The position numbers were made by a program, and so were the translations under genes. This document shows, piece by piece, positions 55,869 through 63,003 of a stretch of 64,000 nt of DNA. The notes below the pieces were generated by a model. It saw only the letters and a list, made by a program, of their open reading frames with translations. It was not told the origin of the DNA and made no database searches. The DNA is from Hyphomicrobiales bacterium (GTDB taxonomy: Bacteria; Pseudomonadota; Alphaproteobacteria; Rhizobiales; Beijerinckiaceae), in contig JAQGKD010000096.1 of NCBI GenBank assembly GCA_028290285.1, positions 124,001 through 188,000 on the forward strand, in the 5' to 3' direction. Each line of letters begins with the position of its first letter. Position 1 is the first letter of the stretch.

Positions 55869-55901
55869 TGCACTATTTTGCAAACAGACCAACGCGGCCC
55901 G

Positions 55902-56021
55902 CTTCTCCCGGTGGGAGAAGCTGTCGGCGGAGCCGGCGGATGAGGGGTTACGCTCCCTGTTCGGAGAGTCCGAAACCCCTCATCCGGCCGTTCCACGGCC
56001 ACCTTCTCCCACTGGGAGAAG
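55902..56021 (+). repeat. RIME-like 120-bp repeat, copy A
   Basis: Each end is a 19-bp near-palindrome built from CTTCTCCC and GGGAGAAG. Inside, GATGAGGGGTTACG and CGAAACCCCTCATC form a second inverted pair. Length and layout match copy B at 62826-62945, which is in the opposite orientation. Two nested palindromes are the hallmark of rhizobial intergenic mosaic elements (RIME1, about 106 bp). Confidence 0.85.
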
Positions 56022-56037
56022 GGCTTCGCGCCCCAGC

Positions 56038-57357
56038 CTACAAAAACTGCAATGCACGCGGCTCCTTGCCGCGCAAAGCCTGTGCGAATTCCACGGCGGC
56101 GAACAGTCCGCCCGCCACGAAGATGCGCAATCCGCGCTCGCGGGCAATATCGACCGAGCGCTGCGCGGCGGCGGCGATGTCGGGCTCAACATCAATCTCG
56201 GCCTCGCCGGGCAGATCGCGCAGCAGCCCAGCAACTTCTTGCGCATCACGTCCCTTGTGATGCGCCTGCGTGCACAAGATGAATGGGAAACGCGCTTTCA
56301 GAATGGCCAGCATATACGTGGCATTCTTGTCGGCGGACACGCCTGCAACAAGCAGCCAGTTCTCGTGCCCGAAGGCCTCGAACAGGCCATTCGCAGCTTG
56401 CTCGATCGCATCGGGTGAATGCCCCACGTCGATGACGACGAGCGGATCATGCGCGATCGTCTCCAGCCGTCCCGGCCATTGTGTCGCTGCAAGCCCGTCC
56501 CGCAGGGCTTTCTCGAACATGGCCGGTGTTACCGCGTGATGCGACCTGGAGAGCCAGGCGCCAAGGGCGAGCGCGGCGCAGGCCGCGTTTCCAGCCTGAA
56601 AGCGCCCCTGCAACGGCGTGACGAGATCGGTGAAATCCATGAAGGACGTGTGAAGCGAAAAGCGCATGTGCAGTGGGCCGATTTGCACATCCGACACCTC
56701 CGCATCACGCCCGATGAACAATGGCCTGATGTCGCGCAAGCGTACGTAGGTAGAAAGAAGCTCCTGCAGCGGAAGCAGGTTCTCGCCATGCACGATGGTG
56801 CCTCCCGCAGCGCAGGCGTCCGACTTGTCGAGCGCGATCAGGTCGAGCTGCGATCCCAGCAACGCCGTATGTTCGAGATCGATGGAGGCAAGCACCGTGA
56901 CGGACGCGCGCACGAGCCGCGTCGCATCGAGCCGCCCGCCGATGCCGGCCTCGAAGACGCAGAGGTCCGCATCCCGCCGCTGGAACCACAGCGCGGCAGC
57001 GACGAATTGCGCCTCGAAAGCGCCGAACGTGCCGTGGCAGAAGCGGCCTTCCAGCGCCCGCACCTCCGCGGAGACATCGCGCGCCAGCGCCTGCATTGCG
57101 TCATCGCCGATCTCGCACCAGTCCAGGCGGAAGCGTTCGTTGATCCGCAGCAGATGCGGCGAGGTGAACGTGCCCACCCGCAAGCCCGCGCGCATCGCGA
57201 TATGGCTGAGGAAAGCACAGGTGCTGCCCTTGCCGTTCGAGCCCGTGACGACGATGGAGCGTGCGGCGAGACGTGCGCGATCCACGCCGCAGGCGTCGAG
57301 CAAGGCATCGACGCGGGCTAGGCTGATGCCACGTCCGAATTTGGGCAGGTCAAACAT
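56038..57357 (-). CDS. FolC-like Mur ligase paired with an ATP-grasp ligase
   Basis: 439 residues. P-loop GSNGKGST at 39-46, SPHLLRINERFRLD near 66-79, and EAGIGGRLDATR at 136-147 are Mur ligase/FolC motifs. Two normally conserved folate-enzyme features differ: the EKAGI stretch is LDKSDA near 176-181, and the C-terminal DGAHN is DVGHS at 310-314. The start overlaps the ATP-grasp stop by 8 bp, implying coupled synthesis. It may be a divergent folylpolyglutamate synthase, but the partner suggests a peptide or cyanophycin-like ligase. Substrate unknown. Confidence 0.85.
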   Translation of the reverse strand: MFDLPKFGRGISLARVDALLDACGVDRARLAARSIVVTGSNGKGSTCAFLSHIAMRAGLRVGTFTSPHLLRINERFRLDWCEIGDDAMQALARDVSAEVRALEGRFCHGTFGAFEAQFVAAALWFQRRDADLCVFEAGIGGRLDATRLVRASVTVLASIDLEHTALLGSQLDLIALDKSDACAAGGTIVHGENLLPLQELLSTYVRLRDIRPLFIGRDAEVSDVQIGPLHMRFSLHTSFMDFTDLVTPLQGRFQAGNAACAALALGAWLSRSHHAVTPAMFEKALRDGLAATQWPGRLETIAHDPLVVIDVGHSPDAIEQAANGLFEAFGHENWLLVAGVSADKNATYMLAILKARFPFILCTQAHHKGRDAQEVAGLLRDLPGEAEIDVEPDIAAAAQRSVDIARERGLRIFVAGGLFAAVEFAQALRGKEPRALQFL

Positions 57358-58345
57358 GGTCGATCAGCCCCATGCGCGTGAAAACTTCGCCCCAGAGCCG
57401 TAGGATCACATCCTCACGGCCCAGCGCTTCCAGACTGAAGATCGCAGGATTGCCATTGATCTCGATGATGCGCGTGGCGTCGCTCGTTACCATCACATCC
57501 ACGCCCGCGACGCGCAGGCCGACGGCCTCGCGCGCGGCACGGGCGAGACGAAGCACGTCAGGCGGCGCATCGTCGACGAGCCGCACGGATGCGCCCGCGC
57601 TCGCATTGCGGCGGTCGTCCAGCGTCACCGTTTCGCCCGAAGACAGAACGGTGGACGCGTCTCGCGATGCCGGCAGTGCGGACGGCGAAAGTCCGGCAGC
57701 GATCTGCCGGGCCGCAAGCACCTCATGCAAGGCGCCCAAGCTCCGCACCCCATCGCCGCGCAGCACGGCAGCGAAGCGCTGCATGACGAAAATGACCTCG
57801 CCATCGACGAGAAACACGCGATATTCCTCGCCCTCGAACACGTCCTGGATGAGGATCGCGTCATGCATGCGACCCACGCGGGCGAGCCAATCCTCGAAAC
57901 CCTCGTTACTGGAGATGCGCTCCGCAAAATCGCCGCGCGATCCCGCCAGCGGCTTGCAGAACGCCGTGTAGCCACGCGCCTGCATGAGTGTCCGCGCGTC
58001 CTCGATTTCGTGACCCGGCCGGCGCAGGTTCTTCATGCGCGCATTGAGGAAGAAAGCCTCGCCGCCGAGATTGGCGACGCCCTGCGCATCCAGCGCGAGT
58101 CCTGTAAAATGCTTGTCGGTTGCGATGGCCATGGCCGACGCGCTGTTGGGCGGGTAGACGCAGGTGCGCCCCGTCGTCGCAATGACGCAGCCCCGGGGCC
58201 CCTCGCCGATTCGCACGAGCGTCCCGCCATCGCCGTCGAGCGCGGCGAAGGGAACGCCATGATGTGCGCAGGCGCTCTCCAGATAGAGCGCCTGGTCGGG
58301 GTAGGGCATCGGCTTGCCGGCGCGCAGGTCGCGGATCGACGTCAC
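57350..58345 (-). CDS. CphA/GshAB-like ATP-grasp ligase
   Basis: 331 residues. ATP-grasp features in order: SAMAIATDKHFTG near 70-82, FCKPLAGSRG at 129-138, FEGEEYRVFLVDGEVIF at 170-186, NASAGASVRL at 247-256 (compare NLSTGG in cyanophycin synthetase and GshAB), GVDVMV at 281-286 and IEINGNPAIF at 294-303, with metal ligands in the last. GTG start. Such enzymes form amide bonds through an acyl phosphate. The gene precedes and overlaps the FolC-like gene. Upstream, the SDR gene is divergent. Confidence 0.85.
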   Translation of the reverse strand: MTSIRDLRAGKPMPYPDQALYLESACAHHGVPFAALDGDGGTLVRIGEGPRGCVIATTGRTCVYPPNSASAMAIATDKHFTGLALDAQGVANLGGEAFFLNARMKNLRRPGHEIEDARTLMQARGYTAFCKPLAGSRGDFAERISSNEGFEDWLARVGRMHDAILIQDVFEGEEYRVFLVDGEVIFVMQRFAAVLRGDGVRSLGALHEVLAARQIAAGLSPSALPASRDASTVLSSGETVTLDDRRNASAGASVRLVDDAPPDVLRLARAAREAVGLRVAGVDVMVTSDATRIIEINGNPAIFSLEALGREDVILRLWGEVFTRMGLIDHV

Positions 58346-58485
58346 GTTCTCATCCTCGAGGGTCCGCCCGCTTATAGCGGAGCCAGGCGGCGCGGGGAAA
58401 GGGATTGGCCGAGCCGCCTGCCATCGGTTAGAGTTTGGCCGATAACAGCCGCCCGGAGAGGCGTGGATTTGAGGGAGGGTTCGCC

Positions 58486-62799: not shown

Positions 62800-62825
62800 G
62801 GCGATTCATCCGCTCCGCTGCTGTC

Positions 62826-62945
62826 CTTCTCCCGGTGGGAGAAGGTGGCTGTGGAGCAGCCGGATGAGGGGTTTCGTTCTCGCTCGAAATAGCGCGTAAC
62901 CCCTCATCAGTCGGCTCTGCCGACAGCTTCTCCCACCGGGAGAAG
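62826..62945 (-). repeat. RIME-like 120-bp repeat, copy B
   Basis: Same length and nested palindromes as copy A, in reverse orientation, between the binding-protein and permease genes of one operon. Ends are CTTCTCCCGGTGGGAGAAG and CTTCTCCCACCGGGAGAAG. Its transcript would fold strongly and may attenuate or stabilise mRNA between the two genes. Confidence 0.85.
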
Positions 62946-63003
62946 CAAGACGTGCCCGGCATCAGCGCATGTCCGTTTTGCCGCCGAATTTCCGGAGACC
63001 TGC

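Follow-up and report, generated by a model that had tools for sequence, protein, structure and literature searches.

The window analysed here, a stretch of 64,000 nucleotides from a Hyphomicrobiales bacterium, carries two slightly overlapping ligase genes, the first encoding an ATP-grasp protein and the second a FolC-like Mur ligase (Table 1). The preliminary description read them as a possible split cyanophycin-synthetase-like system, and the locus raises the question of whether the two genes form a working unit and, if they do, how that unit relates to cyanophycin synthetase (CphA) and what it might make. No description of this gene pair was found in open-licence full texts.

Table 1. Positions of the gene pair and its signals in the window.
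Feature	Position	Strand	Details and basis
ATP-grasp carboxylate-amine ligase, CphA/GshF G-domain type (pair gene 1)	57350..58345	-	331 aa, GTG start; ORF, NCBIfam, family alignment, model
FolC-like Mur ligase (pair gene 2)	56038..57357	-	439 aa, ATG start; own clade, on the FolC side
8-bp overlap ATGTTTGA, gene-1 stop and gene-2 start	57350..57357	-	read from sequence
GAGGA, Shine-Dalgarno-like stretch 5' of the ATP-grasp GTG (candidate)	58353..58357	-	read from sequence

The overlap, coordinates and strand first given for the two open reading frames were borne out, with the shared ATGTTTGA accounting for the 8 bp, and the motifs NASAGAS, EINGNP and KPLAGSRG are all present in the ATP-grasp translation. 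The start codons of both genes are backed by family alignments in which most aligned relatives start at about the same residue, and the candidate GAGGA stretch lies 7 nt 5' of the GTG start of the ATP-grasp gene. The GC content of the pair (0.64-0.68) resembles that of its surroundings. Eight window neighbours were scanned, comprising an imuB-like Y-family polymerase, a DnaE-type polymerase, an SDR, a TctC-type receptor, an IclR regulator, an amino-acid-type binding protein and a permease, and one protein without a match; no obvious partner of the pair and no folate gene was found among them. A role in anti-phage defence was dropped, as PADLOC gave no match at E<=0.01. Directly 3' of the FolC-like gene lies one copy of a dispersed imperfect-palindrome repeat of approximately 120 nt with the ends CTTCTCCC and GGGAGAAG, present in the window at 55901-56022 and 62825-62946.

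The genome_contigs scan (84,980 species), run with an alignment of seven ATP-grasps and one peptide pattern, returned 120 stretches that fitted the pattern, at least 79 of which were confirmed as loci; with a single-protein query no relative was confirmed. The FolC-like gene adjoins the ATP-grasp gene recognised by profile, in the same order and on the same strand, in 67 of the 79 loci, many of which are close Bradyrhizobium kin such that the 67 do not represent 67 independent events. Both a Tardiphaga robiniae LMG 26467 locus (L075) and a Bradyrhizobium locus (L088) carry the pair, and the paired loci include two Pseudoalteromonas species. Measured by aligned start, the junction is -8 in 29 of the paired loci, -1 in 26, 0 in five and 8 to 100 nt in seven, so that 60 of the 67 have a junction of -8, -1 or 0. 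Among the 12 remaining loci, one has a run of N between the genes with a FolC-like ORF on the same strand (L111), one lies at a contig end (L121, on the same contig as L051), five are stand-alone ATP-grasps of 24-28% identity (L122, L123, L127, L129 and L131) and five are long or unlike proteins (L134-L138).

Within the family of Tardiphaga and Bradyrhizobium the ATP-grasp profile matches 38 of 248 genomes (E<=1e-40) and the FolC-like profile 37 (E<=1e-90), cut-offs that were chosen by the authors, with three of the 37 (G783, G699, G715) having supplied profile rows. All 37 lie within the 38, with the two genes adjacent and on one strand in every case, and the thirty-eighth ATP-grasp genome (G969) gave a partial match of 172 bits. 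The pair is patchy, the FolC-like protein occurring in five of 47 genera of this family, with 211 of the 248 genomes giving no match at the cut-off. Because the arrangement recurs in most of the loci and in 37 genomes of a single family it goes beyond chance, and the pair is a conserved module. The joint search across genomes thus confirmed a real, co-occurring pair rather than two genes that rarely meet, although close kin of the window genome do not carry the pair. When the window ATP-grasp was used as query, five of 150 relatives' genomes matched at E<=1e-10, its own included, with the other four belonging only to the same order and none besides its own found in its genus and family. At E<=1e-12 the query matched 10 of 385 genomes of the class and six of 398 of the phylum, again counting its own and including some long CphA-like proteins.

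Regions around 14 of the ATP-grasp matches were inspected, and a FolC-like gene is directly adjacent in six. In seven the ATP-grasps are more distant (26-32% identity) and no FolC-like match appears at E<=1e-4, while in the region of L051 the contig ends 184 bp after the ATP-grasp gene and no FolC-like start falls in those 184 bp. The FolC-like profile was also run on 13 genomes, giving best scores of 446-559 bits in the six genomes with the pair, five of which had supplied profile rows. In the genomes with stand-alone ATP-grasps the best scores were 130-219 bits in G153, G254, G1117, G1118 and G1120 and 42 in G216, with no match in G1119. Two FolC-type genes were detected both in G1118, with nearly equal scores (219 and 217 bits), and in G153 (175 and 154 bits), and an unlinked, diverged FolC-like partner may be present in these two genomes. 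A Methylococcaceae MAG (GLR68) has two ATP-grasps without an adjoining FolC-like gene (L123 and L127) and two FolC-type genes elsewhere in the genome. A lone 349-aa ATP-grasp annotated as 'cyanophycin synthetase' is carried on the pTi plasmid of Rhizobium rhododendri (L148:2842-3891), and the annotation of the 6.4 kb retrieved around it shows no Mur ligase.

The window is assigned to a bin that is 93.85% complete with 7.08% contamination, in which the pair lies on contig C97. A second FolC on contig C87 outscores the window protein, at 341 bits, and groups in trees with the FolCs of relatives, ruling out the window protein as the only FolC of the genome bin. The preliminary description had allowed that the FolC-like protein might prove to be the sole folylpolyglutamate synthase, and this did not turn out to be the case. 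At E<=1e-20, 59 of 60 relatives have one FolC match each and one, 82% complete, has none, with the window genome having two. The window protein shares 32% identity with the FolC on contig C87 and 28-37% with the FolC matches of the 59 other genomes. That it might be an ordinary folC duplicate, functionally independent of the ATP-grasp gene that happens to lie beside it, is suggested by the NCBIfam subfamily model, which names the protein FolC, and a chance neighbour is conceivable in a single genome. This is contradicted already by the co-occurrence and adjacency in 37 of 37 genomes of one family, by the 67 paired loci and by the separate clade and uniform residue changes of the pair proteins described below, and it is scarcely credible.

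The ATP-grasp protein gave partial ATP-grasp matches in Pfam, and its best NCBIfam match was cyanophycin synthetase (TIGR02068) at 70 bits, this being a full-length model with a cut-off of 850. Weak matches to MptN (41 bits) and RimK (44.5 bits) were recorded, and none of the 20 NCBIfam models matched at E<=1 was that of PgsB/CapB, a result of profile comparison only. In a Foldseek search with its AlphaFold model (mean pLDDT 92.7, pTM 0.90) ranks 1-16 were all CphA1, GshF or CphA2 chains with TM-scores by query of 0.52-0.69, the GshF chains 3ln6 and 3ln7 being among the top matches, followed by LysX, Ddl and RimK. Judged by profile and predicted fold, the protein is nearest to the ATP-grasp domains found in cyanophycin synthetase and in GshF, which upholds the earlier assignment as a stand-alone ATP-grasp of CphA/GshAB type. 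In a tree, the paired and some stand-alone ATP-grasps form a 20-row group (99/99) apart from CphA and GshF (96/90), within which the paired ones were not recovered as a single clade (four changes, weakly settled). The ATP-grasp can apparently be passed on without its FolC-like partner, because five of the 79 loci have it standing alone and the paired forms are not one clade.

The residues expected for catalysis can be followed in the alignments. K131, R176 and D283 of the ATP-grasp align with K261, R309 and D431 of CphA1, and in the tree alignment E295 aligns with E450 of the CphA EVN motif, HMMER picking a glutamate a few residues earlier; in the sections available of one report the four CphA1 residues are described for ATP, acyl-phosphate and Mg (PMC9427784). 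The P-loop site of TeCphA1 His267 is occupied by Arg in all 12 paired rows and in three of 12 stand-alone rows. Of the three CphA rows two have Gln and just one has His, so this site does not define the CphA family. The CphA1 R458 site, an Arg holding the alpha-carboxylate of aspartate, is Arg in five of 12 paired rows (L047, L048, L087, L104 and L078) and Phe in the window protein.

The FolC-like gene gave a Mur_ligase_C match and a short Mur_ligase_M match in Pfam, and scored 241 bits with TIGR01499 (cut-off 162.65), a model matched at E<=1e-5 by all 26 FolC-like members scanned. With the window protein alone as query, the FolC equivalog models gave 168.5 bits (NF047860, cut-off 700) and 148.8 bits (NF008101, cut-off 360), shortfalls that may mean little. 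TIGR02068 gave 34 bits against its 850. In two trees built with different FolC samples the pair Mur ligases form one clade (96/95 with 14 rows, 100/98 with 13 rows) and join FolC in branches of 26 rows (99/96) and 30 rows (100/99), leaving the three CphA Mur halves outside. FolC itself does not come out as a single clade when sampled more widely, so that the pair Mur ligases may branch next to FolC or inside it. The CphA Mur halves group only tentatively with MurC, MurE and MurF in the tree with the 14-row clade (94/93), MurE being the single other Mur ligase in the tree with the 13-row clade, and closeness of the CphA Mur half to MurE and MurF is described in the part of a published study that was available (PMC11915815). 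A split CphA by descent is accordingly rejected for the Mur half. Because that half belongs to the FolC side, the likeness of the pair to cyanophycin synthetase is, as judged from these trees, parallel and not by descent; of the split cyanophycin-synthetase-like system first proposed, the CphA/GshF-type ATP-grasp and the reality of the pair stand, and the common origin does not.

A convergent split polymerase, in which an unrecognised two-amino-acid polymer would receive its backbone from the ATP-grasp and its side chains from the Mur ligase, would account for the closeness of the ATP-grasp half to CphA and GshF and for a gene order, ATP-grasp then Mur, that repeats the order within the CphA chain. 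N247 and the basic residue 190 also align with N394 and R323 of CphA1, residues that bind the aspartate to be added according to the available text of the CphA1 report (PMC9427784), but the GshF row has both, so that CphA is not singled out, and the two were no longer taken to indicate that the amino acid added is acidic. The placement of the Mur half also counts against a polymerase, as does the want of a CphA-type N domain, the window ATP-grasp aligning from CphA position 166 onwards, and no gene of the cyanophycinase family (Peptidase_S51) was found in the 94%-complete genome by a search whose control matched in 10 of 14 genomes. We consider such a polymerase improbable.

The residues of the Mur half were compared between 73 pair rows and 17 FolC rows, five of the latter from other phyla. 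From the 75 pair rows found, sequences shorter than 400 aa or containing stretches of undefined residues were left out, and among the 73 are four duplicates of loci reached by two routes (L047/L075, L049/L088, L050/L128 and L052/L118). The Mur core is kept in all 73 rows (G39, the P-loop N41-S45, E136, K178, N257, R297, D310 and H313), and because of this the ligase chemistry is expected to be intact. Five near-invariant FolC positions, numbered as in E. coli, are changed throughout the 73: T122 to G112 (T in 16 of 17 FolC rows), N157 to R147 (N in 15), D172 to E162 (D in 16), G190 to D180 (G in 15) and S403 to G417 (S in 15). T122 presumably contacts the pterin, and we take S403 to be the counterpart of M. 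tuberculosis S473. The latter is a modelled glutamate contact in the accessible sections of one report (PMC10861534). Both the acceptor and the incoming amino acid of the FolC-like enzyme probably differ from those of FolC, and the enzyme has probably left folate work.

Were the enzyme still to bind a folate-type cofactor, the ATP-grasp might add residues, for example alpha-linked, to a folate or pterin tail in the manner of MptN/RimK-type enzymes. The FolC-side placement (the TIGR01499 score and both trees) and the retention of R15 and D144, conserved in FolC, are in keeping with such tail modification, as are the weak MptN and RimK matches and a lineage (L052) in which the pair is immediately preceded by another FolC-type gene. 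Against it stand the five altered positions, the 211 family genomes without a FolC-like match, which make the pair dispensable for folate, and the lack of a folate gene among the eight neighbours scanned; we regard it as unlikely.

We prefer to read the pair as a two-enzyme ATP-dependent amide-ligase module, with a probability of roughly 0.65. From the chemistry of its family, the ATP-grasp would convert a carboxylate to an acyl-phosphate and join an amino acid to it, and the FolC-type Mur ligase would then activate a carboxylate on the same growing molecule and join another; this order of action, the amino acids, the acceptor and the shared product are putative, and it is from the two families together that we infer the forming of one amide bond after another on a single product. 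The overlap of stop and start codons would couple translation, such that both enzymes would be produced together. The product would most likely be a small isopeptide-type metabolite or a short oligomer, a short isopeptide metabolite being the first choice with a polymer and a modified cofactor tail as its rivals. A more speculative and doubtful extension is that a cyanophycin-synthetase-like machine has arisen twice, here by combining an ATP-grasp of CphA/GshF type with a Mur ligase of FolC and not CphA type in two coupled chains. In Bradyrhizobium, Tardiphaga, Rhodopseudomonas, Pseudoalteromonas and their relatives it would then make a novel isopeptide oligomer or polymer.

The amide-ligase module shares features with several known systems and is identical to none of those compared. 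As in CphA1 (TIGR02068), an ATP-grasp half of the same type and fold comes first and is combined with a Mur ligase, but CphA1 is a single chain with N, G and M domains (856-915 aa in three rows) whereas the pair is two ORFs. FolC is not known to need an ATP-grasp partner, and its homology to the Mur half extends over the whole length with the same catalytic core. In GshF (GshAB) an ATP-grasp of the same type is partnered by glutamate-cysteine ligase, whereas the window ATP-grasp stands alone, with no such fused domain and with a Mur ligase as its neighbour. Archaeal pseudomurein clusters likewise bring together Mur ligases and an ATP-grasp protein, but as far as the available portion of the study goes they hold several Mur ligases, serve the wall peptide of methanogens and include no FolC-type member (PMC11915815). 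Should the two enzymes share a product, several groups of bacteria from soil and sea, photosynthetic ones included, would make an amide-linked metabolite missing from pathway maps, whose second enzyme the standard family model (TIGR01499) would name FolC. The pair would then be a case of a FolC-type Mur ligase quitting folate work and teaming with an ATP-grasp, a combination that parallels cyanophycin synthetase in composition, and it could be tested in culturable strains.

The genes around the pair vary between lineages, with none seen recurring across them, and because the neighbours differ the context does not name the pathway. The commonest neighbours in the 79 loci are a zinc-type oxidoreductase family (44) and a glutamate-synthase-domain family, PF01645 (43), neither of which is among the eight window neighbours scanned; a conserved third gene from these families was given little weight, their recurrence resembling species synteny. 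In two Pseudoalteromonas species a gene of 346-347 aa and no known family lies 5' of the pair, and a 221-aa gene of no recognised family follows it by 14 nt (L126:9320-9985 and L120:9320-9985). To us the Cys/His/Asp spacing of the 221-aa protein seemed to recall phytochelatin-synthase-like peptidases; Pfam, NCBIfam and PDB gave chance-level matches only, its model was poor (pLDDT 47.2) and a fold search was empty at E<=0.001, and this assignment was dropped. In the single alphaproteobacterial genome carrying L052 (7882-12541), the additional FolC-type gene places three ligase genes in a row, and what we take to be an accD-like gene also lies directly upstream of the pair.
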